Assembly: GCF_018873765.1 (NCBI RefSeq)
Contig: NC_057920.1
Span: 41,937,267 to 42,001,266 of the forward strand
Direction of reading: 5' to 3'
DNA length: 64,000 bases
From: Telopea speciosissima
Lineage: Eukaryota > Streptophyta > Magnoliopsida > Proteales > Proteaceae
Both the position numbers and the translations under genes were made by a program. The notes under the pieces are model-generated. The model saw only the letters and a list, made by a program, of their open reading frames with translations. It was not told the DNA's origin and ran no database searches. This document shows, piece after piece, positions 15,869 through 63,467 of the stretch. Position 1 is the stretch's first letter, and each line of letters begins with the position of its first letter.

Positions 15869-16137
15869 CAAATCAAATTTGTATAACATTTATCATAAAG
15901 TAGTAAACATTTATATTATAGAATACAAATCATCCAAGATGATCTAAATCTAGATCAGTTTTCCAGTTTAAATGTGATAACTTGGTAAAAAACAATCAAG
16001 AAAACCAAGATTCAAGCAAAAAAAAATCATTCTTTTTCTAATATACTTCAACACCCGACTTTGGTGTTTGATCTCCACCTTGATGAGTTTTAATGCAAAT
16101 TTTTGCTTGTTCGATCTCCATCTTGATGGAGTATATG

Positions 16138-16978
16138 ATGTGTAACTTTAGCCACACTATGATGGATGATGATATAGTGAAACTTGAGGAGAGAGAGCTA
16201 CCACCAAGTGACTATTTCATATATCTGGGATCTATCATACACAAAGAAGGTAATATAGATGACGATGTTTCACAAAGAATTAAAGTGGGATGGATGAAGT
16301 GGAGAGGGGCGACCGGAGTACTGTGTGACTGACACATTCTTTTAAAGCTTAAAGGAAAGTTTTACAGGACTGTAGTGTGACCTGCTATGATGTATGGGGC
16401 AGAATGTTGGGCAGTTAAGAAGTGTCATATAGCGAAGATATGTGTCGCAGAGATGAGGATGTTAAGATGGATGTGCGGCAAAACTAAGAAGGATAAAGTG
16501 AGGAACAAAAAAATTAGAGCCGATGTGGAAGTTGCCCCGATCAGCGACAAGCTCCGAGAATGTCGTCTGAGGTGGTTTGGTCATGTGCAACGGAGGCATG
16601 GGGATGCCCCAGTAAGGAGGAGTGACCTAATTCCGATTGATGGAGCTAAAAGAACTAGGGGCAGGCCTAAAACAATTATAGGTGAGGTTGTAAATAATGA
16701 CATGCAGAGTCCGGGTCTTGTGCCAAGTATGACCTCAAATAGAGCCTATTGGAGGATAAGGATCCACGTTGTTGACACCAGGTGAGATTTTCATGTTTTT
16801 CTGGGCTTGCCTCTTTCCTCTTACTCTCATTTTTCATTTTTCCATCTATCACTTTTCTCATCCCTTTGCTTCTTTTATATTCTTCATTCCTCTGTTGCCC
16901 CTACTTTGTTTTGTAAGGATCCATGTAGCCATCCCCACTTAGCTGGGATAAGGCTGACTTGATGTTGTTGTTGTTGTT
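16138..16978 (+). pseudogene. RTE-type LINE fragment, C-terminal end and 3' tail
   Basis: The frame at 16160-16785 gives the C-terminal part of an RTE-clade reverse transcriptase protein: SDYFIYLGSIIHKEGNIDDD, then [12 protein letters not shown], then RMLRWMCGKTKKDKVRN and ECRLRWFGHVQRRHGDAP. It is interrupted by stops near 16331 and 16380. The 3' untranslated part ends in GGATCCATGTAGCC...AGCTGGGATAAGGCTGA and a (TTG)n tail at about 16965-16978, as usual for RTE elements. The copy is 5'-truncated and dead. A related LINE lies on the other strand at 50195-61735. Confidence 0.85.
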
Positions 16979-37029: not shown

Positions 37030-37525
37030 ACTGATGAAAAGGGGGGTGAGTACACCCAGCAGCTTCAACAACACACAAGTTGTGAATGGAATGTGGCCAA
37101 TCTATCACACACCCAAGCGACAGAGCCTTTCGAGCTAGGGTATCCGAAACACCATTCTTAACCCTAGGAATATAGCAAAACGAAATAGAGGAGAACTGAG
37201 AAGCCAACCACAGAACATCCAAGACCAAATCCTCCCCTTCAACGTAAGCAGGATTAGTACCCATGATAAACTGAACTGCATCTTAGCTATCGGATTCAAC
37301 TAGAATTTTGTCGATTCCCATCTCCAAAGCCGCTAAGAGACAACTGCGGATGGCCAGAATCTCCCCTTCAATAATTGAACCAAATTGAGAGGGGATAGAC
37401 AAAGCCAAAATAACCAATCCATCATGGCTTCTCAAGATCACTCCTATACCGCCAGTATACTTGGAGTTGGAGAGAGCAACATCACAGTTTAACTTATACA
37501 TCCCCACTGGGGGGGTTCCCAACTA
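37030..37525 (-). pseudogene. L1 RNase H domain
   Basis: KLNCDVALSNSKYTGGIGV carries the first catalytic Asp, IEGEILAIRSCL the Glu, VESDS the second Asp and RVKNGVSDTLARKAL the final Asp. A stop right after VESDS (about 37282) breaks the frame. The RNase H residues are otherwise complete. Confidence 0.9.
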
Positions 37526-38160
37526 CGACACAGATGAATGGGGCTATCCGCTCTCCCATTAGAAGTAGGAGATAATTTTTGAACAGCAGAATCGAACTCC
37601 AAGAAAGCCTTCTTGGCGAGAGCAATAACATCAGAGGGAGACCAATCTTTACCGTTGAAGGCCAGCTCATTACGAGCTCTCCACAGGTACCAACAAATAA
37701 AGGATGCCTTAGAAAGAGCAACTTTGGCCGCTCTTTTATCTTCACGGAACCAGACATCCCAACTTTGAATCCAATCTGCTAAACAAGGATCAACAACAGG
37801 AGGAGAAAATTGAAGCGAAGACCCAAACCAAACACATCTCGCAAAGGGGCAATCAAAGAGCAAATGGTCTACAGATTTAGAAGTCGCGTTGCATCTAAGA
37901 CAGTTGGGATCAATTTGAACCTTGCGCAAACTCAAGTTCTCTCCTGTGGTTGTAGCTTCGTTACAGGACCTCCAAAGAAAAGACTTAATCTTTGGGAGCG
38001 TATCAATTGACCACACTCTGTTCCACACCGAGGCAGGAATAGATTCCCAATGCCTGAGCTTTGAGGAAGACGCAGTAGCTTTATTTTTTTCCTCCTCCAG
38101 TCTATCCAGCAATCTGTAAGCAGTCTTCATAGAAAACTTACCATTAGCCCCTCCCCCCAT
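37489..38160 (-). pseudogene. L1 zinc-binding region between RT and RNase H (zf-RVT)
   Basis: WNRVWSIDTLPKIKSFLWRS, then CLRCNATSKSVDHLLFDCPF, gives the CxxC...HxxxxC pattern of the zf-RVT domain of plant L1 elements. It follows the RT after a frameshift at about 38127-38160. Confidence 0.88.
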
Positions 38161-40567
38161 ATCCTTCTATCATCCCTATGTAATAAGCTGAGAGGGATTC
38201 TCAGAATAGCATTGGCCTCAGACGGATGGAAGACCTCCTTAATTAAACTCTCTTTCCACCTTCTTGTTACTGGATCAATCAGCTCAGCCACCATCGATAG
38301 GGAGCAGTTGACAGGTCTAGGATACTTTAGTTTGTAACCTGGCAAGGAGGGAATCCACCTATCATCCCAAATATCAACTCCAGTTCCATCCCCCACTCTC
38401 CACACAAGCCCTTCAAGAAGAACTTCACGGCCCAAGAGGAGGCTTCTCCAACCCCACAAGGGACGGTTCCCTAGTTTAGCCTTTAAAAAATCACAGTTGG
38501 GAAAGTAAATGGACTTAATGAATTTCACCCACTGGGAATCAGAGGAAGTCCATAATCTCCACGCCGCTTTGGCAAGCAAAGCTTTATTTTGAAGCCTAGA
38601 ATCTTTAAAACCCAGACCACCCATGGATTTTGGTCTGCAAAGCCTCTGCCAGGACATCCAATGCAGCTGTTTCTTTGTCTCAGAATCTCCCCAATAGAAG
38701 CTAGAAGAGACTTTGACCAAAGAATTATGAAAAGACACCGGCAGTTTGAAATGGGAACCTGCAAAGTTTGCCATAGGAGCAACTGAAGCCTTCAACAACA
38801 CTTCTTTCCCAGCATGAGATAACAGCTTTTCCTTCCAACCTTGGAACTTACTAAGAGTTCTGTCTTTAATCTCATTGAACACCTCTTTCTTTGAGACGCC
38901 AAAATAAGAAGGCAGCCCCAACTACTTCGAAGGACCATCCCCATGCTTGACTTTAAGGATTCTAGCAAACCATCTTTTGATCCTGTCATGAGTATTTGGA
39001 CTGAAAGTAAGACCAGACTTTTGGAGATTTATAGCTTGACCAGTAGCTTCACAATATAAATCCAGACAGTCCTTGAGAGTATTTATCTCCTGTAGATCCA
39101 CTCGAGCAAACATTAAACAATCATCTGCAAATAGAAGTTGAGTAATGGGTTCACTACGATGCCTGACTCTAACCCCCTTAAGGGTGCCAGCATCCTCAGC
39201 CTGTTTAGTAACAGCAGTAAGGGCTTGGGAACAAAGAATAAAGATAGCTGGAGAGATAGGATCGCCTTGGCGAATACCTCTAGAGGGGATCACACACCCA
39301 TTTATGAGCAGATTGTAGGACACACTAGTAATAAAAGTCATTACTAGGTTAACCCAATAACTACTAAAGCCCAGTTTGCGAAGCATACCATCAATAAACT
39401 TCCACTCCAACCTGTCATAAGCTTTATGCATGTCCAGCTTCAGTGCCAAGAATTTCTCCCTCCCTTTCTTTAGTTTCTTTATGTATTGAAAGAGCTCATG
39501 TGCCACCAAAATATTATCTGAGATAAGCCTATCAGGGATAAACGCCGACTGAGAAGGAGAGATAATCAAATCCAAAGCACCATTAGACGATCCGCCATGA
39601 TCTTGGTGATGACCTTGAAAGCAATATTACATAGGCTAAAGGGTCTAAACTGGTCTACATTCTCAGGGGCTGTCACCTTAGGAATAAGACAGATGTAAGT
39701 TTTATTTAACTCTCTAGGCACAATGCCAGTCCGAAAGAGCTCCTCTACAATGCCTAAAAGATCCATCTTCACCACCTCCCAATACTTCTGAAAAAAGATG
39801 GGGGAAAGCCCATCAGGCCCAGGAGACTTCAGAGGGGCCATGTCAAAAAGGGCCTTATGAACTTCCTCAATCTTAGGGACAACACAAAGATTATTATTCA
39901 AATCATCAGAAACAACCGGTTGCACAACATCCAAGACCGAATTGAGAGCAATATTATTCAAAGGTTCAGAAGAATAAAGAGATTGAAAGTGGTTACACAA
40001 GATATTTGACACCTCAGCTTCAGAAGAAGACCACTCCCCCGAGGCGGACTTGAGCTTCAAAATTTTATTTCTATGTCTCCTCTTCAAAGTTGTCACATGG
40101 AAGAAGGCAGTATTTCTATCTCCTCCCTTGAGCCAATCCACCCTCGACTTTTGATGCCACATCTCTTCTCCCTTTGCAATTCAATATCAAGGAGCTTTTG
40201 AACTTCATTTTCCTTGGAAATAGAGTAAAGAGATCGCGACAAGCTTTGAATATGCTCAAGATGGGCTTTGAGAGCTCTAATATTTGCTGCAATGTTACCA
40301 AAAACTTCCACATTCCATTTTCTAACGACCCCACGGCAGTGGTTTACTTTCCTCAAAGTCTGCTTGGTAACCGAACCAGAACCAGGAATGGACTAGGCTG
40401 TATCCACCACATTCTTAAAATCTTCATCTAAAGTCCACATGGACTCAAACCTGAAGGGCCTCTTACCTCTACTACTAACTCCATCCGTGTCAAGCAAGAT
40501 AGGACAATGGTCCGAGCTAACAGCCGGCTTGATGAAAACTGCAGCGTTGTCAAAAGTTTGTCTCCAC
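38127..40567 (-). pseudogene. L1 endonuclease C-terminus and reverse transcriptase
   Basis: The endonuclease end is at 40393-40567. The RT (40162-38922, then 38921-38127 after a stop) includes LKSPGPDGLSPIFFQKYW, SQSAFIPDRLISDNILVAHE, LDMHKAYDRLEW, IRQGDPISPAIFILCSQAL and the catalytic FADDCLMFAR. The order and spacing fit a plant L1 ORF2. It is missing ORF1 and the start of ORF2 by 5' truncation. Confidence 0.92.
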
Positions 40568-44609: not shown

Positions 44610-47600
44610 ATGGGAACGCTTCAGAGCTGGCGTAAAGCCTATGGAGCACTCAAGGATACCACAATGGTCGGCCTGGCCAAGGTCAACAGCGAATACAAGG
44701 TCTGCATTTCGATTCTTAATCATTTCCCAATTAACCCAATTCATTTTCTCACTGTTTTTGGGTAATTATTTTTTTTAATTTTTTTTTATTTGTTTTGGTT
44801 TCATATTTTGCTGGAAAGGATTTGGATATTGCTATTGTCAAGGCTACGAATCATGTCGAATGCCCTCCTAAGGAACGGCACGTTAGAAGTGAGTTGAAAT
44901 TATTTATTTGTTGATATTGGGTTCTGTTCTGTTCTGTTCTGTTTCAAATCAATTTCTGTTTCCATTTCTCTGAATTTGGTTGTTAAGATAGATCCTTGTA
45001 GAAACACTAAATCTCTGATTTTAAATTTTGTTCTTAATGATTGTGAAGATTCAGGACTCAATTAATAAATTTTTTGTTGATTTATTTTGTTTGAATGAGA
45101 TTCTTCTTCTGATGTGGGAATTTAGATTTAGGCTTGGTAACCATGTTCTTCAAATTAATGGAATATGTTTTCTGTCTATTTCATTAATTTATTTTTTTTA
45201 ATTCTGATAATCTGTTGCCTGTGCTTCAGAAATATTTTCTGCTACCTCTGTTGCCCAACCCCGGGCTGATGTTGCTTACTGCATTCATGCACTTGCGAGA
45301 AGATTGGCCAAGACGCGTAACTGGATTGTACTCTTATCTCCTCATTCTCTTCTTCTTATGTTGGATAAAATTTGTGCTCACTACAATGCATGATTAATTA
45401 GACTAAGGCCGTCTTTGGATAATCTTCTAGAAGCCAAAAAAATTTGCTTCCATCAGTTTCTTCAAACACCCCATAAATCTTCTTTGATAGGTCTAATTAG
45501 CCTTAATTTGAACCAGACCAAACTTTTGGATATCAGTTCCATATTTGTTCCCTTCTGTCTATGTGTGTGTATGGAGGGAAGAGAGAGAAAGAGAGTAAGG
45601 AAAAGGGTGGCAGTCTGTCTTCTGACCTGTTGTATGCATTAAACAATTTAAGCTATGCAATTTTAACCTTTTGATGCCTATGATCAACAGGTTGCTTTGA
45701 AGACATTGATAGTTATTCATAGAACATTGAGAGAGGGTGATCCGACCTTCAGGGAGGAGCTGTTAAACTACTCACACAGAGGACATGTACTTCAAATATC
45801 GAATTTCAAGGATGACTCTAGCCCCCTTGGTATAGCATTATATTTTTCGCAGTTCATGGCTGAATTTTTTCCTCTTGACGAGCATTTGCATCTTATTTTT
45901 CTTCTTTCATAGATGGAGAAATTTTTTCCCTGCAGCTTGGGATTGCTCTGCATGGGTCCGTTCATATGCACTTTTTCTGGAGGAACGGCTTGAGTGTTTT
46001 AGGATTTTGAGGTATGATATTGAAGCAGAACGTATGAGTAAATTCTCACATGGTGGAAACAAGGTGTGTGTGCATTGCTTCATTTGGGTGTATTCAGCTG
46101 ATTATTAAGTGAAACTCTGGAACTGTTGTTCTTAGTTCATAAAAATCTCTCTCTATATTAACAGGGACATAGCAGGACAAGAGTTTTAGGTAGCGAAGAA
46201 CTGTTGGAGCAGTTGCCTGCCTTACAGCAGCTGCTATATCGCCTGGTCGGTTGCCAGGTAAAAGTTAATAGTAAATACTTGTTGTGCCTGATACCATTAG
46301 CTTTTTAAGTTCACTAATGTCTACGGGTGTCTGTGTGTAGATTAGTTAAAAAAAAAAACAAATGAAAAGAATAATTTCTATCAATGATTTGTTTGATATT
46401 TAAAGGGGGTTTCATAATCTTGCTACTTTTTGCAGCCTGAGGGAGCAGCTTTTAGCAACTACCTTATACAGTATGCTTTGGCTCTGGTATATGGACTTAT
46501 CATTTCTTTTTCTCTTAGACTAACTCCTATCTCTGCTCTGTCTTCAGGAAATATATTTGTTCTTTTAAACACACACATACATACTTATATGTATATATAC
46601 ATTTCTATTATAGTGAAATCTTGTTGTAACCAAGGTTGGTGAAAAAAATCATAACTTTACTTTTTTTCCCTTAGCACACTTCTTTTCAATGAGGGTAAAT
46701 CCTGTCATTCACACTTTTAGATGACCTTGCCTACCTACTTGTCTTTATATTATGCTAGACCTAAAATGAAACTGCAGACTCAAAAAAAAAAAAAAAAAAT
46801 CTGCATTCTCATTGATTATTTTTTCAATTTGATATAATTACGCTCCGAATAGTATAGATTTTTTACAGCTGCAGGCTAGAAAATGGAAGTTGATGGCTTC
46901 ATGATTTTTTTTTCCCTTTATTTGTCTTTGTATGTGTTTGTGCATCTGTTTGTGTGGGTGGGTGGGTGGATGTTGGTGTGCATGCACTTTCTCAAGCCTT
47001 AGAATTCTAGTATACTCCTAAAAGAACTTATTTGCATTGATCAGGGTTTCATCACCATTATCAACAGCTCCTTAAGTTATCCAGTTTTCTTGAGACTTTC
47101 TACAGACTAATTTCACTTCTATAGGGTTCATGGTGCATTGTGTGGTACTTTGGGTTGTTTTTGCTTTTGGACTCCTCCTGGGAGGGGGGGTGTGTTCCCC
47201 CTTCTTTTACTAACTTCAGTGAGTAGGTTGATTTGTGATAAATGTGATCAAAGATCTCAAACGGTTATGAATGAAGGCAATTTTTTTAGAATGATTAATT
47301 ATATTATAAAATATTTTCCAGCAGTTTTGGAGTTCAATACTTGGTTTCGATAAATAAGTTTTTGATTCTAGTTCTAAGAGGGACTAAGTTGTTCTAAATT
47401 GTGGTTATGTAGGTACTGAAAGAGAGCTTTAAAATATATTGTGCCATCAATGATGGAATTATCAATCTTGTGGATGTGGTAAGGTTATACTGCAACAGGC
47501 TAAATGTCCTAGATGACTTTTGGACTTGATTATATTCATAAATATGTTTTCTTTCAAGTCAATCACAGAGTCTGTATCTCATTGCAGTTCTTTGACATGT

Positions 47601-50600
47601 CAAGACATGATGCGGTAAAAGCTCTCAATACCTACAAACGAGCAGGGCAACAGGTTTTAGAACCCATACCCTTTTATGTCTTTTAAGGGCTGCTCATTGC
47701 TTTATAAAGTGAAGCATAGCAGCAGATGTATCTTTGGTATTTTCTACAAAGTTTCCCTATTTAGAGATTCCTATTGAGTTTGTCTCTTTTTTTCTTTTAA
47801 TTTTATGACAGGCTGAAAATCTTGCTTATTTTTATGAATTCTGCAAAGGGTTGGATCTTGCTAGGAACTTTCAGTTTCCAACTTTGAGACAGGTTCTTTC
47901 TCTCACTATAATGGAAGATTTGCAGAAGAGGATGAGTATTTTTTATCTCTAACTTTTTTTTCTGTGCTAAACAGCCACCTCCATCCTTTCTTGCAACAAT
48001 GGAGGAATACATAAGAGAAGCACCTCGCATAGGTTCTGTTTCAAATAAGAGACTGGTGAGTTTCATACTGTTATGGGTTGTTAATTTTATGCAATTGGCA
48101 GGGTTATTAATCATACTATTGACTCAGTTGCCAAACAAAGTTGTATTCCCTCCATCCCACAAAACCATTGTCTAAAACCTTGGAATTGTCCGAGAATCAG
48201 TCGGACTCAGCCTAATTTGGTCGGACTCAGTAAGCCAAAAAATCGTGGTTAACTGGGACAGCGTCGGTTGATTCCAAGTCGAATTGGCCGATTTTGCCGA
48301 CTCCAATCCGATATTTGAAAGCCTGCATAGAGATCTTACTCTTTGGAAAAGCCCAGTATTGGTGAAAGCCTCCACTATTTTCCAAAATTTCCCCTCTCAT
48401 CATTTATTTAAACCCTCATAAATGTAAAGCCTTACACTGGAAAGGATAATCTGGTCAACTTCTTAAAATCCTATTATTTATTTTGTAAGGTAGACAAATA
48501 ATTTGGGACAGCAAAGAGATAATGTGGATCACTTCTCAAAATCCCTTTAGTTATTTTGTAAATTTAGGACAGCCAAAAATGGGAAGGACATTCATAGTGA
48601 GATGAAAGGAATATGATCTAAGATTGATGCAGGACAACCTATGGTCTGAAAATTTAGATCTTCACTAAAGGAAAAAGTGATGGAAAGCCTTTAAGTATGG
48701 GCGAAAAGATAAAGAAGTTATAATTTAAATAGAATAAGAAATCAACAACAAATGTTGGAGTAATTGAAGATAAATTAGCCTTAGAGAGAATGAAGTTGGG
48801 TTTGAAACGCTTTGGGACAATGAATAATTCCTGGTAATGGTATCAAAGAGAAATTAGGAGAAAAGAAGATATGAAGAATATTAAGAGAGAAAAGTGAAGA
48901 TTAACTACGCACATGAATCTTAGCGGGTGGGTTGTGTTGGTTTAAATAGAGAAGTTTCAACGAAATATTCTTGCGATTTTCAAGCCTTCTGCAGCTGGAG
49001 TTCTTGGCACCTTTGTTTTAGGAGTATCTGATTCTTCTACTCCGTCATCCGCTATCTTGAATGTAAAGTTTTCTCTTTTCTTTTTTATTGGTGAAGTCCC
49101 TGGTTCACCTGTTTGCTTTTTGTAGAGCTACTGTTTTTATTTTTGGCTAGAAGGATGCAGCTTCCTAGGTTTACATAGGGAAAGCAACTCCCACACCCCA
49201 TTTCTGCCACATGGCATGTGGAGTGGGAAAATCCAAACTGTTGGATAGGAAGAGGAAGCCATGTAACAGTCATGGGTCAAATTTGGGGCCTTAATTCAAT
49301 GATATGGTCCACCTTGTATTTTCAATGGTCCAAAAAATTTCAAAAGTTTGTACTTTTTTACCATTTTTACTTATTTTGACACATGTCAGAATCTGATTGA
49401 ACTCAAACTGGGGAACATGAGTAGGGGTGGATGGGACCTAACTTTTACCAAAATTTAGCCCTAGGTGACTTTCCATGTGGCATATAAAGCCCAGGGCCTT
49501 CATTGCAATGCAGTCCCCAGGGAGCTGCATCCACCTTCCCTTTTTTTTTGGAAAATAGTTGCCTAAAAAAGACATAAAAAAAGGAGATCATTTTGGCAAA
49601 GATAGGGATTCATATATTAGGATTCTCTAGCACATCAATTCAAATTTATTTCTGTAATGGTACTGAGTTCTGTATGAAAGACCCCTTCATATAGACTTCT
49701 AACAATAGACAACTCAACTTCCATTTTAAACTGGAAACAATCTAACACCAACGCAAACAACACAAAATATACAGAGTTGCCACTACGGAGAAAAAGTAGA
49801 ATAATTGAAAACCAGCCACCAAATCCTTGAACCCAATCCCTTGAACTTTGATGCCTTCATCAAGAATGACTCTGAAATGGTTTCGAAGAAAATTTTCTAA
49901 AATAGAAGGCAGGACCTCATTCATCAGGAAAAACCTGGGTATGAGTTAGTCCTACTGGCAAAACCTGGATAAACTTCTCATTTGGGGACTATTAATTAAG
50001 AAGTTGGACCCTTCTGTGTTCTGGATGTTTGGCCATCATGACAATTTAATTCTTGCACCAAAATGGGTTTTTAACTTTTTCATGTCAATTTTGATTGTTC
50101 TGGGCTTGGTTTCCAATTTTCATTGTATAAATCAGGTTGTGTCGCTATTCTTTTATTTGTTTTGATCTGGTTGTTTCTTAAACCAGGAGTATAAACAACA
50201 ACAATTCAGCCTTATCCCAACTAAATGGGGTCGGCTACATGGATCCTTTCCCTCCAATCAGCTCGATTTGAGATCATACTTGATATAAGGCCTAACCTAT
50301 GCATGTCTTTCCTCACCACTTCTCCTAAGGTCATTTTAGTTCTGCCCCTGACTCATTTAGTTCCTTCAATCTGAATCAAACCACTCCTCCGTATTGGGCA
50401 TCCAAAGGCCTCTGTTGAACATGGCCATGCCACCTCAAACGACTTTCTCGTGGTTTATCATGTATCGGAGCTACTCCCAAATCAGCTCTAATATAATCAT
50501 TCCTTACTTTGTCCTTCCTAGTTTTGCCACTCATCCATCTCAAATCCTCATCTCTACTACACTGAGTTTATTTATATTATGCTTCTTAGCTGCCAACATT

Positions 50601-53600
50601 CCGCACCATACATCATAGCCAGTCGTGTGACTTTCCTATAAAATTTTCCTTTAAAGTTTAAAGGAATATGCCAATCACACAACACTCCGGACCTACCTCT
50701 CCACTTCATCCATCCTATTTTAATTCTTTGTGAAACATCATCCTCTATATCACCTTCTTTATTTATGATTGATCCCAGATACCTAAAATAATCACTTTGC
50801 AATCTCCCTCTCTTTAATTTTCACCACCTCATTATCCGTCCGAGTGTAAATCAAAATTACACACCAAATACTCCGTCTTTGTTCTACTTATCTTAGAACC
50901 TTTTGATTCCAAGGTTGATCTCCATAAATCTGACTTGGCGTTAATCCCTGCTTTTGTCTCATACACCAAGGAACCTCATCTTGAGTGTCTTTGGTTAAAT
51001 CATCCATGATAAGCGCAAACAAATAAGGGCTTAAATTTGATCCTTGAAGTAACCCAATTGTAATTGGGAATTCACTACCTTGACCCCCATAGTTCTTGCA
51101 CTTGTCACTGCACCATCATACATATCTTTAATTATATCCTCATATTTACTTGAAACACTTCTCTTCTCTAGTACTTGATAGATTAAATCTCTAGGGACTC
51201 TATGATATGCTTTTTCTAGGTCAATAAAGACCATATGGAGATCCTTTTTACAATCTCTAAATCTTTCCATGAGTCTCCTAAGTAAGTAAATAGCTTTTAT
51301 TGTGGATCTTCCAGGCACAAAACCAAATTGTTTCTCTGTAATAGTAGTTTCTTGTCTCAAGTGGGTTTCAATAACTCTCTCCCATAATTTTATAGTATGA
51401 CTCATTAGTTTTATACCTTTATAGTTATTGTTGCTCTGAATATCACCTTTATTTTTGTAAATTGGAACCACGATGCTTCTCATCCATTCATCTAGCATTT
51501 TCTTGTGCTAATAATCTTATTAAACAGATTGGTTAGCCAAGATAAGCCACAAATTCCTAAGCTCTAATAATCTTATTAAACAGCTTGGTTAGCGAAGATA
51601 AACCATAGATTCCTAAGCTCTTTCACACTTCTATTGGGACCTCATCTGGACCTTGTGCCTCGCCTACTTTCATCCTCCTTAAAGCTTCTTTTACTTCAGA
51701 CACCTTATTTTTTCGTATATATCTACGACATGTGGTGTCTTTATGGGTAATGCAGTCTTCCAGAACACTATAACTCGAAGTATCTTCATTTAGTAGGCTG
51801 CAGAAATAACCTTCCCATCTTCTTAATGTCCTCATCCCTGTTAACATAGAGTGTTGCTTAATATTCCTTAATCCAATTGGTTACAGTGATGGGTATATAT
51901 AAATACAAGAAAACCCTAGTAGGGTTGGAATCCTATATGAGATATCCTACATGTGATAACGATGGAAGGTTTCTATTATCACATGTAGTTGATGATGGTA
52001 AGAGATCTATACACATAAGGAAACTAGGGAGATCCAACATAGCGCGTTACTAGAATGGTAATGGCTATATTGGTCAATACACCCCCTCAAGGTGAAAATT
52101 CCGAACAGCGGATCTTTATCTTGTCTCTCATGAATTGGAAGCGAGCCTTTGGTAAAGCCTTGGTCAATGCATCGGCTATTTGGTCCGTAGTGGAGATGAA
52201 CTGGACTTGAAGTTGTTTCTGGGCATCATGTTCACGAACAAAATGGAAGTCTATTTCCACATGCTTAGTGCGGGCATGGAAAACTGGATTGGCTGATAAG
52301 TAAATGGCGCCAATATTGTCACACCATAAGATGGGCGCCATAGATTGGGGAAGTCCAAGTTCCTTGAATAAAGATTGAAGCCAAATAAGTTCGGCAGCAG
52401 CGTCAGCTAAAGCCTTGTACTCAGATTCGGTCGATGAACGAGACACCTTTTTTTGGTTGCGAGAGTTCCAGGAAATCAGGTTTGGACCCAAGAAGATTGC
52501 ATAACCTCCTGTAGAACGGCAATCGTTGGGGCTGCCAGAGGAGTTGACATCGGTGAAAGCCTGGAGAGTAAATGAAGGTGACCGGTCAAAGAAAAGCCCA
52601 GAAGTGGAAGTTCCTTTCAGGTAACGTAAGATGTGCTTCACCAGACTCCAGTCATCAGTAGTGGGAGCATGCATTGTCTGATAGGCGCGATTAACTACAA
52701 ACGCGACATCTGGATGGGTCAATGTAACATACTGGAGGGCTCCTACTATGGAGCGATAATGACTGGAATCAGAGAAAGCTTCACCCCTTGTGTGAGAGGG
52801 CTTGACACTGGTTGCCATGGGAGTCAATATAGGCTTACAATCAGCCATTCCAGGCCTCTGTAACAAATCATGAACATATCTGGTTTGAGTGAGAAGAAGA
52901 CCATTGCATTGAGGGGTGGCCTCAACACCCAAAAAGAAATGTAACGGCCCAAGATCCTTAATGGAGAATTCAGCTGCCAAACCGGATAGCAAAGCCTGCA
53001 CCTGCGAAGAAGAGTTGCCAGTATCCAATATATCATCAAAATAGATCAGAACATACATAATGGAAGTCCCACGACGAAAAATAAATAGGGAAGTGTCCGT
53101 CCTAGAAGCAGTAAACCCAAAAGCCAAGAGAAAATTGGTTAATCGATGAAACTAAGCTCGGGGGGCTTGTTTGAGACCATATAAAGACCGATGGAGGCCG
53201 CAAACATGATTGGATTTAGACTTATCCTCAAAGCCAGGTGGTTGCACCATATATACTTCTTCATTGAGTTCCCCATGGAGGAACGCATTCTGCACATCCA
53301 ACTGACGGATGGCCCATCCATTAGAGACAGCAAGAAAAATAACAGTCCGAGTAGTAGGTTATTTGACGACAGGACTGAAGGTTTCACTGTAGCCAATACC
53401 CTCCTATTGATGAAACCTTTTAACAACTAGGCTCGCTTTGTAGCGCTCAAGAGAGCCATCAGCCTTGCGTTTCACATGGTACACCTACTTGCAGCCCACT
53501 AGGTTCATGGAAGGAGAGTGAGGGACCAAGTACCATTTCGGGGAAGAGCATTAAACTCCTCTGCCATTGTAGTCCGCCATGCTGGAAATTTCACTGCTTG

Positions 53601-56600
53601 GGAAAAACAAGTAGGTTCAGTAGGGGGAGGAAGTGTGGCAGTCAGGGTAGTGGTGGGATGGTTGGGTATAGGATGGGTGACTTGGTAAAGGTCCACAAGG
53701 GTTTTGGTTCGGGTCGGTTGTGAAGTTGGGGACCCGGGTGGAGTGTGAGGTAAAAGGATAGGTGGTGGGTATGGTGGAGATTGGGGTGGTGATGGGGAAA
53801 GCAGTAGAGAGGTGGCGGGGGATGGTGAGCGTAAGTAATGTAGTCCTAGATAGGTAGGAGACCTACTAGGAGCCAAACAACAGGATCAAATAACAAAAGG
53901 GGCTGCTGGTTCGAATGGACAGCACTAGGATTTAGGTCAATTCCTAGGGTTTGGGTTGGATATTGGGAAAGGGGTTTATAGGGTATTAATGGGCAGGTCT
54001 AGGGGGTTAATATGGTATAAAAAGGTTAGGATTTGGATGAGTTTTGAAATTCTGTAATTTTGGGCAGAATTGAATTTTAGGGTTTTGGGTTTGGGTTTTA
54101 ATGGAGCAAGGAGATGAAGGGGTTATAGTGGGAGTTTGGGGCTGAAACTTGGATCGAGTGTCAACAATGATGTAAGGGATGTATGCTGAAAGTTTGGTTT
54201 GAAACTGATGGACAGATTTGGAGTTATGGAGGTTTCCAAGTAGAAGTAGGAGAGATGGGTAAAACTGTAATTTCAGACAATCGGCTGGGTGGATGGTGCT
54301 GAAATTTGAATCGAGTCTCTCTTAGGGTTTGAGGAAGACTTGATCAAATTTTTAGCAGATTCTAATGGTTAGATTTGGCTGGGCAGAATTCTCACGAAAA
54401 TCACCTTGTATGTGACCTTCTAGAAGGAAGAAGAATAGTTGCAGAATTTCTTACTTGTTATAGGTCTTCAATGGCAACAGCTTTGAAGATGAACAATGGG
54501 GTCTCCCGATCTTCACAATGCAAGGAGATAAGTAGCAGCCCTCCCGATCTTCACAATGCAAGGAGTCGATTGGAGATCCACCAATCCCTTCAACCTTGAT
54601 ATTACTCACAAGGCAACCTTGATATTACTCACAAGGCACACTCACGATGGAGCAACGGCAGCAACAAAGGCAGCAAGCATAAAGCTAATTTTTATTAATC
54701 AAATTCGTATACAATACTGGCCTCCCTTACAAACTTATATAGAAGACTCAAAAATAGACTTAGACACTAAAAAGGAATGGCCTAACCTTATCCCTAACCT
54801 ATTAGGCAACTTAAACTGACTAGGAAACCCAAATAGACTCAAAATAGAGTCGTAATGACTTAAAACAACTTAAACTACTTAAAATAAAGAAGATTCCCTA
54901 GTAGCCAATAGGATATAAGAACCTCTTAGCCAATAGGATCACTTCACTTAAATTAGACCAATTGAACCAATTGGATGCAACCAATTTAAACCGGTTCAAT
55001 TAAAAACACAAAATAAAAACTAAGTATTGGGCTGATCCCGTATGCAACCTATATACCCCTATTTCAGGCCCACTAAAGTGGCCTAATACATAGAAAACCC
55101 TTGGGAACAAAGGCCCAACATATATATATCCCAACCCTACACTTATTCCCAATGAAACAAGCCCTATTTGATGATGAATCTGCATCAACTCTCCCCAACT
55201 TGAAAAAATTCGTCCTCAAATTTTGTAGTGATGAGGGGGAATCAACATGTGATCAGCAGCTTTGACCATCCCCAAACAGAATTTCGGTGAAGCGGGAACA
55301 TTGGAGATAAAGTCTTCAATGCGTGGAGCGTTCTCTTCAAAGAACCATAGTGCCATAACAAACTCTATGTGCTTGACCTCTTCAAGAACAACATCTTGGA
55401 TGTCGATGATTTCTTGTGGAGTGTTGTCAATCACCACTTCATCTTCCATGTCCTCAGCCTTGTCTACTTTGCCCTCTTCAGTAGTTTCTTCTACCATTGT
55501 GTGTTGGACCTCCACATCAATTTGATGGCCGAACTTCTCAACCATGATCTCAACTACTGGTGCAGCTTGGTCTACTTGAATTTCTTTAGCTATAGGTTCT
55601 TGAATCTCTTCAACACAAACCGCTTTAGTAGAATCTTTTGTAGGTGCATTTGCCATAGGTAAAACTTCAAACACAGTCGACATCACTTGCATTTGAGTGG
55701 ACATGTTCGGCAGTCCTTGTGGCTGTACAGTCGATGTGGTCACCTTTGGTTGTAATCCTTTTAGAGTAAACAAATGGTATAGACGCTGTCGATCAGGTAG
55801 GACACACAAGTTGTTTTCCGGTTCAATCTAACCTTGTCGCTCGTCCAACCAATTGCAACCTACTGCAATAAAGATCCTTGGAGATGGTACCGGCTTACAT
55901 CAAGCACCATCATGATATGAAGAACACCCAAATTCAACACAGACTTTACCTGTAGGCTCGATGCAAATCTCTCCTGATTGGGAAAACATATCCACCACGG
56001 ATTGTGAAATAATGTTGTTACGTCTCCTCTCATTAACAACTAAGATGGCTGTGCTCCCATTGGGTAGACGAACTTGGGTCTTGAAAACGAAGGGAGGTGG
56101 GTCTTTCAAGGCTTGGTTGGAGCTTCCCTCCGCCATAGCTTTGATACCACTTAATGTAGTCCTAGATAGGTAGGAGACCTACTAGGAGCCAAACAACAGG
56201 ATCAAATAACTAAAGAGGCTGCTGGTTCGAATGGACAGCACTAGGATTTAGGTCAATACCTAGGGTTTGGGTTGGATATTAGGAAAGCGGTTTATAGGGT
56301 ATTAATGGGCAGGTCTAGGGGGTTAATATGGTATAAAAAAAGTTAGGATTTGGATGAGTTTTGAAATTCTGTAATTTTGGGCAGAATTGAATTTTAGGGT
56401 TTTGGGTTTGGGTTTTAATGGAGCAAGGAGATGAAGGGGTTAGAGTGGGAGTTTGGGGCTGAAACTTGGATCGAGTGTCAACAATGATGTAAGGGATGTA
56501 TGCTGAAAGTTTGGTTTGAAACTGATGGACAGATTTGGAGTTATGGAGGTTTCCTAGTAGAAGTAGGAGAGAGGGGTAAAACTGTAATTCCAGACAATCG

Positions 56601-59600
56601 GCTGGGTGGATGGTGCTGAAATTTGAATCGAGTCTCTCTTAGGGTTTGAGGAAGACTTGATCAAATTTTTAGCAGATTCTAATGGTTAGATTTGGCTGGG
56701 CAGAATTCTCACGAAAATCACCTTGTATGTGACCTTCTAGAAGGAAGAAGAATAGTTGCAGAATTTCTTACTTGTTACAGGTCTTCAAAGGCAACAGCTT
56801 TGAAGATGAACAATGGGGTCTCCCGATCTTCACAATGCAAGGAGATAAGTAGCAGCCCTCCCGATCTTCACAATGCAAGGAGTCGATTGGAGATCCACCA
56901 ATCCCTTCAACCTTGATATTACTCACAAGGCACACTCACGATGGAGCAAAGGCAGCAACAAAGGCAGCAAGCATAAAGCTAATTTTTATTAATCAAATTT
57001 GTATACAATGCTGGCCTCCTTTACAAACTTATATAGAAGACTCAAAAATAGACTTAGACACTAAAAAGGAATGGCCTAACCTTATCCCTAACCTATTAGG
57101 CAACTTAAACTGACTAGGAAACCCAAATAGACTCAAAATAGAGTCGTAATGACTTAAAACAACTTAAACTACTTAAAATAAAGAAGATTCCTTAGTAGCC
57201 AATAGGATATAGGAACCTCTTAGCCAATAGGATCACTTCACTTAAATTAGACCAATTGAACCAATTGGATGCAACCAATTTAAACTAGTTCAATTAAAAA
57301 CACAAAATAAAAACTAAGTATTGGGCTGATCCCGTATGCAACCTATATACCCCTATTTCAGGCCCACTAAAGTGGCCTAATACATAGAAAACCCTTGGGA
57401 ACAAAGGCCCAACATATATATATCCCAACCCTACACTTATTCCCAATGAAACAAGCCCTATTTGATGATGAATCTGCATCAAATCTCCCCAACTTGAAAA
57501 AATTCGTCCTCAAATTTTGTAGTGATGAGGGGGAATCAACATGTGATTAGCAGCTTTGACCATCCCCAAACAGAATTTCGGTGAAGCGGAAACATTGGGG
57601 ATAAAGTCTTTAATGCGTGGAGCGTTCTCTTCAAAGAACCATAGTGGCATAACAAACTCTATGTGCTTAACCTCTTCAAGAACAACATCTTGGATGTTCA
57701 TGATTTCTTGTGGAGTGTTGTCAATCACCACTTCATCTTCCATGTCCTCAGCCTTGTCTACTTTGCCCTCTTCAGTAGTTTCTTCTACCATTGTGTGTTG
57801 GACCGCCACATTAATTTGATGGCCGAGCTTCTCGACCATGATCTCAACTACTGGTGCAGCTTGGTCTACTTGAATTTCTTTAGCTATAGGTTCTTGAATC
57901 TCTTCAACACAAACCGCTTTAGTAGAATCTTTTGTAGGTGCATCTGCCATAGGTGAAACTTCAAACACAGTCGACGTCACTTGCATTTGAGTGGACATGT
58001 TCGGCAGTCCTTGTGGCTGTACAGTCGATGTGGTCACCTTTGGTTGTAATCCTTTTAGAGTAAACAAATGGTATAGACGCTGTCGATCAGGTAGGACACA
58101 CAAGTTGTTTTTCGGTTCAATCCAACCTTGTCGCTCATCCAACCAATTGAACCTACTGCAATAAAGATCCTTGGAGATGGTACCAGCTTACACCAAGCAC
58201 CATCATGATATGAAGAACACCCAAATTCAACACAGACTTTACCTGTAGGCTCGATGCAAATCTCTCCTGATTGGGACAACATATCCACCACGGATTGTGA
58301 AATAAAGTTGTTACGTCTCCTCTCATCAACAACTAAGATGGCTGTGCTCCCATTGGGTAGACGAACTTGGGTCTTGAAAGCGAAGGGAGGTGGGTCTTTC
58401 AAGGCTTAGTTGGAGCTTCCCTCCGCCATAGCTTTGATACCACTTAATGTAGTCCTAGATAGGTAGGAGACCTACTAGGAGCCAAACAACAGGATCAAAT
58501 AACAAAAGGGGCAATTGGTTCGAATGGACAGCACTAGGATTTAGGTCAATTCCTAGGGTTTGGGTTGGATATTGGGAAAGGGTTTATAGGGTATTAATGG
58601 GCAGGTCTAGGGGGTTAATATGGTATAAAAAGGTTAGGATTTGGATGAGTTTTGAAATTCTGTAATTTTGGGCAGAATTGAATTTTAGGGTTTTGGGTTT
58701 GGGTTTTAATGGAGCAAGGAGATGAAGGGGTTAGAGTGGGAGTTTGGGGCTGAAACTTGGATCGAGTATCAACAATGATGTAAGGGATGTATGCTGAAAG
58801 TTTGGTTTGAAACTGATGGACAGATTTGGAGTTATGGAGGTTTCCTAGTAGAAGTAGGAGAGAGGGGTAAAACTATAATTTCAGACAATCGGCTGGGTGG
58901 ATGGTGCTGAAATTTGAATCGAGTCTCTCTTAGGGTTTGAGGAAGACTTGATTAAATTTTTAGCAGATTCTAATGGTTAGATTTGGCTGGGCAGAATTCT
59001 CACGAAAATCACCTTGTATGTGACCTTCTAGAAGGAAGAAGAATAGTTGCAGAATTTCTTACTTGTTATAGGTCTTCAATGGCAACAGCTTTGAAGATGA
59101 ACAATGGGGTCTCCCGATCTTCACAATGCAAGGAGATAAGTAGCAGCCCTCCCGATCTTCACAATGCAAGGAGTCGATTGGAGATCCACCAATCCCTTCA
59201 ACCTTGATATTACTCACAAGGCACACTCACGATGGAGCAAAGGCAGCAACAAAGGCAGCAAGCATAAAGCTAATTTTTATTAATCAAATTTGTATATAAT
59301 GCTGGCCTCCTTTACAAACTTATATAGAAGACTCAAAAATAGACTTAGACACTAAAAAGGAATGGTCTAACCTTATCCCTAACCTATTAGGCAACTTAAA
59401 CTGACTAGGAAACCCAAATAGACTCAAAATAGAGTCGTAATGACTTAAAACAACTTAAACTACTTAAAATAAAGAAGATTCCCTAGTAGCCAATAGGATA
59501 TAAGAACCTCTTAGCCAATAGGATCATTTCACTTAAATTAGACCAATTGAACCAATTGGATGCAACCAATTTAAACCGGTTCAATTAAAAACACAAAATA

Positions 59601-62600
59601 AAAACTAAGTATTGGGCTAATCCCGTATGCAACCTATATACCCCTATTTCAGGCCCACTAAAGTGGCCTAATACATAGAAAACCCTTGGGAACAAAGGCC
59701 CAACATATATATATCCCAACCCTACACTTATTCCCAATGAAACAAGCCCTATTTGATGATGAATCTGCATCAGTAAGGCTGCAGGTTGGGGAGGCGGTGG
59801 TGGCAAGCATGGATGAGGAAGAGTATGGGCAGGGGGGATAGTAAGGCCAAAGTTGGTGCACTCGCCCACGGTGTAGGAGAAGTAGTGAGGGGTGGTGGTG
59901 AGGAGAGTAAAGGAAGGGCAAAGGGGAATTCGTCTTCAAAGAAACAAACGTGGCGGACATGACGAAGGCGGTTGGTGGTACGATCAAGGCAACGATAGGC
60001 AAGGTGGTTGGGACTGTGACCCAGGAAAACGCAGGGAGAGGAATGGAAATCTATTTTGTGAGTGTTGTATGGGCAAAGATGAGGAAAACATAAGAATCCA
60101 AAAACACGTGAATAAGAATAATCAGGGGGGCGATGAAAAAGAAGTTGATAGGGGGAAACATCATTGGGGACACGTAAAGGTAACCGATTTATTAAAAACA
60201 CAGCAGAGTCAAAAGCAAAGTGCCTGTAAATACGTGGAACTGAGCTATGAGCAAGTAAAGAGAGTCCGGTTTCCACTATGTGACGGTGGTGGCATTCAAC
60301 GGTGCCCTGCTGTTCATGGGTGTGAGGAACAGATACACGATGAGAGATGCCAAGATTAAAAAAAAAAGGGATAGAGAGCGAAATTTCCTTCCCCAATCGG
60401 TTTGTAGAGACTTAATTTTAAGGGGAAATTGCCGTTCAACCAACCGTTGAAATTCCTTAAATAAAGAAAGACATCAGATTTACGGAGCATGGGATAAAAC
60501 CAAATAAATTTTGAATAATCATCCACGAAAATTACAAAATAACGATGACCAAGGTATCCAAATAACCCCTGACCATCAAGGAACGGTTCGAGTTGTATGC
60601 GCCAAAATAGGTAATTGTTGGAGGTGAGTTTCACCGAAATGTAGTGGTGCGCTGATGCAAAGAGGGGGATCCAATAGGTGGGGTGGAGGAAGAAGACAAA
60701 GCACTGCTAGAGGACACATCCTCAAGAGCACCATCGTCGGGCATGGTTGCAGGAAACCAGACAAAGAAGAAAGAAAGGGTGAGGAAAAAAAAATCGCTCG
60801 TTTGAGCTTATACGGCTCTGATTACCATGTTAACATAGAGTGTTGCTTAATATTCCTTAATCCGATCGGTTATAGTGATGGGTATATATAAATACAAGAG
60901 AACCCTAGTAGGGTTGGAATCCTATATGAGATATCCTACATGTGATAACGACAGAAGATTTCTATTATCACATGTAGTTGATGATGGTAAGAGATCTATA
61001 CACAAGGAAACTAGGGAGATCCAATATAGCGCGTTACTAGAATGGTAACGGCTATATTGGTCAATAATCCCTTATAGTACTTTACTAGTTTCACTTTCAA
61101 CACACATAACCTGGTTGAGATCTCTACTTTTCCCTTCCCTCACTTTATCTATCTTATAGATAGCTTTTCCCCTTCCTTTGTGCTCATATTGTTATAATAA
61201 AGATCTTCATATTTCTTTACCCTTGTTTTTTCCCACAATCTTTTTAGCTTCGTTTCTGGGAAATTTATACCTTTATAAATTCTCTACATCCTTGGTCCTT
61301 TGTCATGTCTTAGTGTTAATGGCTGCTTAAACCTCATCATCCCACCACCAAGCCTCTCTAGAGGAATCAAGTTTTCCTTTCAATTCGCCTAGGACATCTT
61401 TAGCAACCTTCTTAATACAAGTAGTCATCTCATCCCACATCTTTTTAGTGTCTCCCTCAAAGTCTCACTTTCCTTGTTTGACCACTTCATCAGTAAATAT
61501 TTTCTTAGTATCTCCTTTAAGCTCCACCACCTTATCCTAGGGCAAATAAGCTCACCTTTCTTACGATTCTGTGTAGTGAGGCACATATCCATGACCATAA
61601 TCTATGTTGTATGGTTAAGCTCTCCCCTGGTATAACGTTTTAGTCCTTACATAACAGTCTATCGGACCTTCTAGTTAGGAAGAAATCTATGTGGCTACTA
61701 TGATGCTCAATTTTGAAGGTAACTAAACACTCCTATTTCTTAAACCAGGAGTATAATGATAAAAATGAAGTGCAGCAGAAACAGGAACCTGAGCCTGAGA
61801 AAATTGAAGAACCTGTTGAAGAAGTTGATGCTGAGGATAAAAAACCAATTAAAGAACCAGAAGAGGAACCCCAGCCTGAGAATGAGGTTGAATCTCCCAT
61901 AGTGGAATCTGCTCCAGATACTGGAGATTTGCTCGTGAGTTTCTATTCCCATTTTTTTTTTCTTCTTTACAGATTGGTGGAAAATATCTTGGAAATATAT
62001 CCATCTTATAATACCTTTTGTTTTTCTTTTTGCAGGGTTTGAATGAGATACACCCTAAAGCTGCAGAGCTAGAGGAAAGCAATGCAATGGCTCTGGCAAT
62101 CATACCATCTAGTGAGTTTAAGAGATCTGGGATACATGTCTGTTGGATAGGGTGGCAGTACTCTTAAGAATGGAATAGAAACATATGTTAAGCATGCAGT
62201 TCATTTGGGACTGCCATCAAATGATTTTAGTGAAAATATCTTCTAGAAAAGAATTCAACCTGATTGGACATTTCATAATCCATGCTATGGACAGTTGCCG
62301 TTGGAAGAACATGGTTAATTGTGCAAAAGAAAGTTTGAGGAAAGAGATGATTGGATGAAGATGCAATGAGAATGCTCTCATGTGGGATTTCTCATAACTA
62401 CAAATGGATTTGAATAGTTGTATTGATTGATCCCAGGACCTATTCTCTTGCAAGTCTAGTCAAAGGGAATTTCTATGTCTGAACAGCAAGTGGGTTGCTA
62501 TGGGACAATGATCTCCTGGGTTGGACCTGGAATTGGTCCTTTCCTGTAGAATTGGTCCTTTCCTGTCTCACATGCACTGTTGTGCTACTGTCGGACAGTT

Positions 62601-63467
62601 CCTTGTTGTATAAATAAGGGTTGCCTTCTTGCAGGATTTAGAGTCCTTTTCAGTCCCTCTTTCCATCTTCTCTCCATTTGATTTGTTGGTTGAACTGTTT
62701 GGGGGTTTGATCTCAACTGAATACATTAATTTGAAAAATTTGCAGAGGGTGATCTATCTTCAACAAATGGGTTGGCAATGATTGAAGCTAGTGGTTCAGG
62801 ATGGGAACTAGCCCTTGTGACGACTTCAACCAACAATACCAGCCACACAACAGAAAGCAAATTGGTTTGTGTTCCCAGCTCAGTCTTAACTTTGTTTTAA
62901 TTATATGTTTTACTCTTAGTTTTTCTGTTAAATGCCGCAAAATATTGTTAATGTGGTGAATGTGAATCCATGTAAAGTTGTGCTGGATACCTAATCTCTC
63001 CCTTTCTGATAATGGGTGGGTGGTGTATATGTTTGGGTCAGGCTGGTGGGTTTGACAAGCTCTTGCTTGATAGCTTGTATGAGGATGACACAGCCAGGAG
63101 ACAACTACAACTACAGAATGCAGGCTATGGAGTTGGCGGCATAAATGCGCCGCAACAGAATGAAGGCTACGGAGTTGGTTTCGGTGTTCATAGCCAGTTC
63201 AATCCACAAGATCCATTTTCAATGTCCAATAGCGTCGCACCCCCAACTAATGTACAGATGGCCCTAATGACTCAGCAGCAGCAGCAACAACAGATGATGC
63301 TGCAACAACAACACCATCAACAACAAATGATGGTACCCTACCAATATAACCCCCAGTATCCACAGCAACCAATGCAGCAAATGGAATCAACCAACCCATT
63401 TGGAGATCCATTTTTCGGCCCCTCACAAAGTTTACCTCCACAGCAAGGACACCATAGCTTAATATAG
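44610..63467 (+). CDS. ANTH-domain (AP180/CALM type) clathrin assembly protein, 15 exons, 589 aa
   Basis: Coding exons: 44610-44699, 44819-44888, 45230-45327, 45691-45829, 45936-46063, 46165-46257, 46436-46486, 47413-47478, 47588-47653, 47812-47892, 47975-48055, 61749-61934, 62036-62111, 62746-62864, 63042-63467. All introns are GT-AG and the joined frame is open (1770 nt with stop). Residues 1-300 are the ANTH domain ([68 protein letters not shown]), which binds PI(4,5)P2 at the plasma membrane. Residues 322-390 are acidic Glu/Pro-rich linker with DLL; the tail has Gln runs, DPF motifs at 505 and 570 and NPF at 566, typical contacts for clathrin adaptors and EH proteins. It should act in clathrin-coated vesicle formation. 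From memory it is closest to Arabidopsis At5g35200. Intron 11 (48056-61748) is swollen by transposons. Confidence 0.95.
48144..48613. mobile_element. Degenerate MITE in ANTH intron 11
   Basis: TATTCCCTCCATCCCAC at the left is matched, inverted and imperfectly, by GTGAGATGAAAGGAATA at the right. A repeated block (TTATTTTGTAA...GGACAGC) occurs inside. The ends recall the Tourist/Stowaway style of plant MITE, but the superfamily is not certain. Confidence 0.4.
49153..49532. mobile_element. MITE in ANTH intron 11, 380 bp
   Basis: The ends are GGATGCAGCTTCCTAGG and, inverted, GGATGCAGCTCCCTGG. The interior is non-coding and has paired TTTTGACAC/CCACATGG-like blocks. I found no clear target duplication. 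Confidence 0.6.
52087..53480 (-). pseudogene. Copia reverse transcriptase and RNase H
   Basis: From 53430 the RT shows [30 protein letters not shown] and [10 protein letters not shown], a stop at about 53154, then [12 protein letters not shown] (usual YVDD is YFDD here) and [16 protein letters not shown]. RNase H follows with [53 protein letters not shown] and [13 protein letters not shown]. The 346-residue stretch 52087-53127 is fully open. Stops are present at about 53425, 53363 and 53154. Confidence 0.93.
53505..53835 (-). pseudogene. Copia linker between integrase and RT, RT-proximal part
   Basis: It encodes a Pro/Ser/Thr-rich stretch (for example [12 protein letters not shown]) followed by [20 protein letters not shown], the normal entry to the copia RT domain. 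It was separated from its integrase by the three-LTR array beginning at 53836. Confidence 0.8.
55216..56136 (-). pseudogene. ORF of the array element, copy 1
   Basis: It starts [16 protein letters not shown] at 56136. An [19 protein letters not shown] segment follows, then FISQ-like [10 protein letters not shown]. Stops at about 55899 and 55829 break it, and it resumes as a Glu/Val-rich C-terminal part ([15 protein letters not shown] ... [10 protein letters not shown]) ending at 55216. The unbroken form would be about 310 residues. No gag, RT or integrase motif is present. Its spacing Asp(Asn)-x6-[FI]IS resembles a retropepsin whose DSG motif has been lost, by comparison with DSGASHSFIS of the gypsy protease in this window. 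Function unknown. Confidence 0.6.
57510..58430 (-). pseudogene. ORF of the array element, copy 2
   Basis: Same ORF as copy 1 with different damage: a stop early in the N-terminus (SSN then stop, about 58408), no stop at the place that breaks copy 1 (HDGAWCKLV), and a frameshift near 58150. Here the retropepsin-like position reads [13 protein letters not shown], keeping the Asp but not the Ser-Gly. Because the two copies broke independently, the shared ancestor was probably intact. Confidence 0.6.
59778..60764 (-). pseudogene. Copia gag start fused by deletion to integrase
   Basis: A Met at about 60744 begins [14 protein letters not shown], and after a frameshift comes [20 protein letters not shown], the start of copia Gag. 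At [20 protein letters not shown] the frame passes straight into the integrase core; most of gag, the protease and the integrase zinc site are missing. Integrase then continues ([40 protein letters not shown]) to the Pro-rich linker where the array is inserted. Confidence 0.85.

Follow-up and report, generated by a model that had tools for sequence, protein, structure and literature searches.

When a retrotransposon lands on the border between an intron and an exon and duplicates the splice site found there, is the product of the gene diverted or preserved? This question is raised by a stretch of DNA from Telopea speciosissima, presumably the waratah, whose genome measures 823 Mb. The stretch (contig NC_057920.1; "the window" denotes all 64 kb analysed) carries a PICALM/At5g57200-like gene with an ANTH domain. 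At the junction of intron 11 and exon 12 of this gene, an insert that began as a long interspersed nuclear element (LINE) is flanked by a 21-bp target-site duplication, and the same 3′ splice site stands both before the insert and behind it. The insertion was probably self-repairing: the duplication would have left exon 12 an acceptor of its own, with the upstream copy surviving as a relic or a weak decoy. In this likeliest mechanism, the gene was preserved by the duplication; the original prediction for this DNA had the opposite emphasis and stressed the upstream copy as a source of shortened products.

The duplicated sequence, TTTCTTAAACCAGGAGTATAA, is identical at 21/21 positions in its two copies, which have a spacing of 11,562 nucleotides (nt) and enclose 11.54 kb of DNA. 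It comprises the final 13 nt of intron 11, including the AG, and the initial 8 nt of exon 12. With up to three mismatches allowed, it was found in the window at these two places only; in a shuffle control (n = 100) for such loose 21-mer matches, the mean was 0.02 and two matches appeared in 1 of the 100 shuffles. The target-site duplication that had been proposed to span the end of intron 11 and the start of exon 12 is therefore correct in both sequence and coordinates. Measured from its donor, intron 11 is 13,693 nt long to the downstream acceptor and 2,131 nt to the upstream acceptor. The perfect identity of the two copies is itself uninformative, because it would be expected about 4 times in 10 from the divergence (10/242) of the long terminal repeats (LTRs) described below. 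A second copy of the native part of intron 11 (48056-50173) was not found in the approximately 200 kb of DNA compared.

The gene around the insert is intact. The 15-exon model has consistent phases and 0 internal stops, and its 589-residue translation is identical at 589/589 positions to record P0001, "putative clathrin assembly protein At5g57200 [Telopea speciosissima]". The ANTH domain occupies residues 31-309 (Pfam, 307.8 bits), and the C-terminal tail contains DPF motifs at 505 and 570 and an NPF motif at 566. Together with an alignment of 16 proteins, these features place the protein in the plant PICALM/At5g57200 ANTH group; a structure search with the ANTH part returned 7 sequences, all known animal chains of the CALM/AP180 type plus one HIP1R chain, and added nothing. 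The mRNA spliced at the downstream acceptor encodes the 589 residues. In agreement with the original prediction of a doubled acceptor with the true start of exon 12 at 61749, both the gene model and the Telopea protein record begin the exon at this position. The start is further supported because its first two codons, Glu-Tyr, are invariant in 16/16 aligned plant proteins, the Telopea one included. An intron is present at the same place in four Telopea paralogs (C11, C2 twice and C7), where it measures 274, 258, 629 and 632 nt; its retention in these four, the paralogs among five (the fifth on C4) whose exons 11 and 12 could be read, was taken as favouring self-repair. In a paralog on C4 (C4:27040131-27079818), the exon matches are spread over 39 kb, so a very long intron seems likely there.

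The insert began as a LINE placed by target-primed reverse transcription, as indicated by the 21/21 duplication, the presence of RVT_1 and a fixed 3′ end with a tail, shared by other copies of the family. The RVT_1 domain scores 57.4 bits (Pfam) in its open frame; among the 120 homologs listed for this frame, 2 are named LINE-1 and most are unnamed or generically named. Four other copies were found in the Telopea DNA compared, and three of the four reach the 3′ end, with a common end sequence and a similar tail. The (TTG)n tail resembles that of RTE elements. The LINE 3′ part gave no match by blastn against a plasmid collection. Three-point terminal-branch estimates of the age of the LINE, which draw on the four other copies at 72-91% identity per piece, range from −0.229 to 0.247 and are unusable. 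One member of the same family (L014:3841-6313; 72-91% identical per aligned piece) lies in the C11 paralog, in the intron between exons 3 and 4. A further copy of the 3′ part is found on the opposite strand at 16125-16968 of the window.

The earlier description of the whole insert as a LINE captured the outer parts but not the copia LTR retrotransposon nested between them, which itself contains a 2.3-kb internal triplication. The nested element is identified as copia by its LTR pair, its 5-bp duplication and RVT_2. It is approximately 9.2 kb long, splits the LINE and is younger than it. The LTRs (51836-52079 and 60825-61066) are identical at 232/244 positions, with 10 mismatches (of 242) and one 2-nt gap. 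On the minus strand, RVT_2 (61 bits) and SH3_retrovirus were detected, and Retrotran_gag_3 was sub-threshold (20.2 bits, cut-off 24.1). The two LINE halves are collinear and adjacent in the L014 copy (with the first query ending at 4271 and the second starting at 4228), and because they adjoin there, they are taken as one LINE into which the copia element came later. The right half closes with 237 nt (61499-61735) that are unmatched in the L014 copy and are attributed to the LINE only by position. Within the copia element, at 53836-59524 of the window, three tandem copies of the 2.3-kb unit are present (82-100% alike by piece, with most pieces at least 97%); each unit holds shorter repeats, and the array represents either internal amplification or misassembly. 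Upstream of the gene, window positions 37489-40180 contain several minus-strand open frames of 204-264 residues that may be another retroelement. The positions of all features are collected in Table 1.

Table 1 The ANTH gene, its duplicated acceptor and the nested insert (window positions)
Feature	Position	Strand	Details
PICALM/At5g57200-like ANTH gene	44610-63467	+	15 coding exons; coding sequence 1770 nt including stop; 589 residues
Exon 11	47975-48055	+	donor of intron 11, ACTG/gtgagtt
Native intron 11 before duplication	48056-50173	+	gene model
Upstream duplication copy	50174-50194	+	AG acceptor ends 50186; phantom exon 12 start 50187
Potential 33-codon extension and TAA	50187-50288	+	after upstream acceptor; TAA at 50286-50288; translation
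LINE 3′ part	50195-51838	-	(TTG)n tail abuts duplication; RVT_1 in open frame 51031-51507
Left copia target-site duplication	51834-51838	.	ATCCC, by eye
Nested copia LTR element	~51839-61066	-	LTR pair, RVT_2, SH3_retrovirus
Right copia target-site duplication	61067-61071	.	ATCCC, by eye
LINE 5′ part	61072-61735	-	61119-61498 matched in other copy; 61499-61735 by position only
AACTAAA, branch-point-like	61721-61727	+	A at −23 of downstream acceptor; supplied by insert
Downstream duplication copy	61736-61756	+	AG acceptor ends 61748; exon 12 start 61749
Exon 12	61749-61934	+	starts EYNDKNEV...; donor GCTC/gtgagtt

In the proposed mechanism, target-primed reverse transcription would have placed the LINE where intron 11 meets exon 12, and the duplication would by chance have taken in all of the 3′ splice-site core (13 intronic nt with the AG, 8 exonic nt). 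Because the duplication spans this entire core, the copy attached to exon 12 would keep a working acceptor, for which the insert would supply AACTAAA and a short pyrimidine stretch. Full-length mRNA would join 48055 to 61749 across the 13.7-kb intron, and the upstream copy would be left stranded, used rarely or never. Any transcripts that did use it would meet a stop after 33 codons and would then be degraded or be terminated at a cryptic poly(A) site. The duplication, the integrity of the gene, the annotated product and the anatomy of the insert are directly demonstrated, whereas the choice of acceptor by the spliceosome, its frequency and what becomes of decoy transcripts are inferred. The perfect repeat at the ends of the insert, the (TTG)n tail on the repeat and the match of the intact 15-exon gene to the Telopea record all support self-repair.

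To compare the two acceptors, a matrix was built from the other 13 acceptors of the gene, for which the leave-one-out scores of true sites range from −5.12 to 11.39. The downstream copy scores 3.38 and the upstream copy 2.37; both values are ordinary and nearly alike, and they were counted on the side of self-repair. The pyrimidine content is equal at the two sites (0.62 and 0.62). The original acceptor had been described as having the longer T-rich tract, which holds for T itself but not for pyrimidine content. The evidence for a branch point is likewise mixed: relative to TACTAAC, the downstream acceptor is preceded by AACTAAA at −23 and TACTATG at −48, with two mismatches each, whereas the best candidate upstream has four, and the stricter pattern considered below favours the other site.

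The two acceptors differ sharply in what they would encode. As had been predicted, use of the upstream copy leads to 33 LINE-side codons and then a stop, giving a product of 354 residues without the DPF/NPF tail, as confirmed by translation. A search with the full-length protein returned the Telopea full-length record as the top match (among 120 of 2150 listed). With the 354-residue query, this record was again the top match, at 91% coverage, and the greatest coverage was 94%; none of the 120 matches listed, of 2239, spans the LINE-encoded end, a result counted in favour of self-repair. The only Telopea record for the gene among the matches listed is the full-length protein, whose name carries no isoform tag. 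The annotation thus uses the downstream acceptor, a choice that does not by itself prove RNA support for the record. A stop at the upstream position is premature if transcription continues and the downstream introns are spliced, in which case nonsense-mediated decay is expected. A stable ANTH-only mRNA would have to be polyadenylated within the insert; in the left half of the LINE, the sole AATAAA, at position 51223, follows the stop by 935 nt, and weaker variants occur, such as AATATA at 50490. Two consequences once drawn from the upstream copy, a regulated ANTH-only isoform and a lowered amount of full-length product, gained no positive evidence: the sole listed record is full-length, and the splice scores do not favour the upstream site. 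Low-level or tissue-specific use of that site is possible.

Several observations weigh against a gene preserved by its downstream acceptor. Among 904 intron AGs, the upstream copy ranks 120th and the downstream copy 87th, and the matrix is too weak to separate them. The T fraction at −25 to −5 is 0.52 upstream and 0.38 downstream, the latter being equal to the lowest value among the other 13 acceptors of the gene (range 0.38-0.76). In the 70 nt before the acceptor, a strict YTNAY pattern occurs three times upstream (−65, −32 and −22) and 0 times downstream. The upstream copy is also in its native context, 2.1 kb from the donor, and intron definition could favour it. The database record, for its part, may be a homology-guided prediction as opposed to RNA evidence. 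Finally, changes specific to Telopea were compared with changes specific to Protea using 14 outgroups, which are non-independent, with uncorrected p values. Telopea-only changes are more numerous than Protea-only changes in the tail with 10/14 outgroups (3 fewer, 1 tie), as against 1/14 for exons 1-11 (11 fewer, 2 ties). The difference between tail and exons 1-11 reaches significance with 1/14 outgroups (Fisher p < 0.05, uncorrected). Constraint on the tail may therefore be mildly relaxed.

The alternative that survives best takes these observations at face value: the upstream acceptor would capture most transcripts, and the allele would be a hypomorph with scarce full-length protein. Its proximity to the donor, native context and three YTNAY patterns, together with the lean of tail changes to Telopea, are the points in its favour. 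Even so, the tail is intact, with DPF, NPF and flanking residues kept in the alignment of 16, and the excess of Telopea changes in exons 12-15 reaches significance with only 1/14 outgroups (p = 0.03, uncorrected; 0/14 for exons 1-11), which was counted for self-repair. The insertion also predates the copia element, whose LTRs already differ, so disuse of the tail should begin to show, an argument of little power. The divergence of Telopea and Protea must long predate the copia insertion, as judged from protein identities of 95% and 79%; because of this age and the non-independence of the outgroups, the tail test is weak either way. Capture of most transcripts by the upstream acceptor is considered unlikely.

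Use of the upstream acceptor could instead be confined to some tissues or to hypomethylation of the insert, with a LINE-terminated ANTH-only protein arising in a Karma-like manner. The upstream acceptor is complete and leads into an open frame of 33 codons, AATAAA lies beyond the stop, and precedents are described in PMC6558080 and PMC10241880. For CHG, the observed/expected ratio is low in both LINE parts (0.69 and 0.39) and in the copia element (0.76) of the insert, and not in neighbouring gene spans, exons included (1.29, 0.99 and 1.21), as would be the case for a long-methylated insert. In contrast, the depletion of CpG is no stronger in the insert (0.39, 0.25 and 0.44) than in the gene spans (0.27, 0.30 and 0.10), so there is no insert-specific depletion, and the composition hints weakly, if at all, at long-term methylation. 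No short-product record is present among the 120 of 2239 matches listed, the annotated protein has no isoform tag, and nothing speaks for conservation of the 33 codons. Such regulation is accordingly rated as quite improbable. The chance is slimmer again for a switch gated by chromatin, in which a methylated insert would direct splicing to the downstream copy and loss of methylation would expose the native acceptor, yielding a LINE-ended, ANTH-only competitor of the full-length adaptor.

An error of assembly is scarcely to be credited: the 2.3-kb triplication in the copia element could be misassembled, but at the repeat the LINE has the terminus of a real element, with its (TTG)n tail, ATCCC is seen by eye on both sides of the copia element, and the LINE halves are collinear in another copy. 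A cassette exon opened by the upstream copy and spliced on to exon 12, with both acceptors in one transcript, has hardly any chance and was rejected on donor positions, scores and frame, since the donor-like sites at 50329 (5.08) and 50452 (5.79) lie past the stop at 50286 and give exon lengths that are not multiples of three, and the two GTs within the open frame score −1.28 and −0.43 (14 true donors, −2.24 to 10.36, leave-one-out).

The preserved Telopea gene can be set beside several known systems. In mantled oil palms, hypomethylation of the Karma LINE in intron 5 of DEF1 results in alternative splicing, and the protein is incomplete (PMC6558080). The Telopea insert is similarly a plant LINE inside an intron. 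In Karma, however, the acceptor reportedly lies within the element, whereas in Telopea an acceptor of the host itself was duplicated, and truncated products are not known. Some introners, which are intron-making transposons, recruit splice sites from their target-site duplication (PMC9860276). To that extent the likeness is close, as the duplication supplies a splice site and the mRNA can stay unchanged. The identity of the Telopea insert as an introner was nevertheless rejected: no intron was created, and intron 11, shared by four paralogs, was here made 11.56 kb longer. At or near the acceptor of MET exon 14, LINE-1 insertions, most with a short target-site duplication, cause exon skipping (PMC12934576); these are likewise LINEs at a splice acceptor, but exon 12 is retained in the annotated Telopea product. 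In Arabidopsis, heterochromatic intronic transposable elements are read through with IBM2/EDM2 (PMC10241880). Such cases resemble Telopea in having a long element in an expressed gene, with a risk of premature polyadenylation, and differ in that they concern poly(A) choice, whereas Telopea has a duplicated host acceptor and silencing of its insert is conjectural. Among the titles listed from the open-licence literature, none was found that reports a LINE duplication doubling a plant acceptor.

At this locus, nature has set a pair of identical 3′ splice sites behind one donor, at a distance of 11.56 kb from each other, and RNA reads from it would permit asking whether the first acceptor is chosen or the one before the real exon. 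If regulated use of the upstream copy were true, the gene would be a Karma-like epiallele of a second type, one made by duplicating a splice site of the host. Under self-repair, the case bears on how long target-site duplications can render insertions at splice borders harmless.

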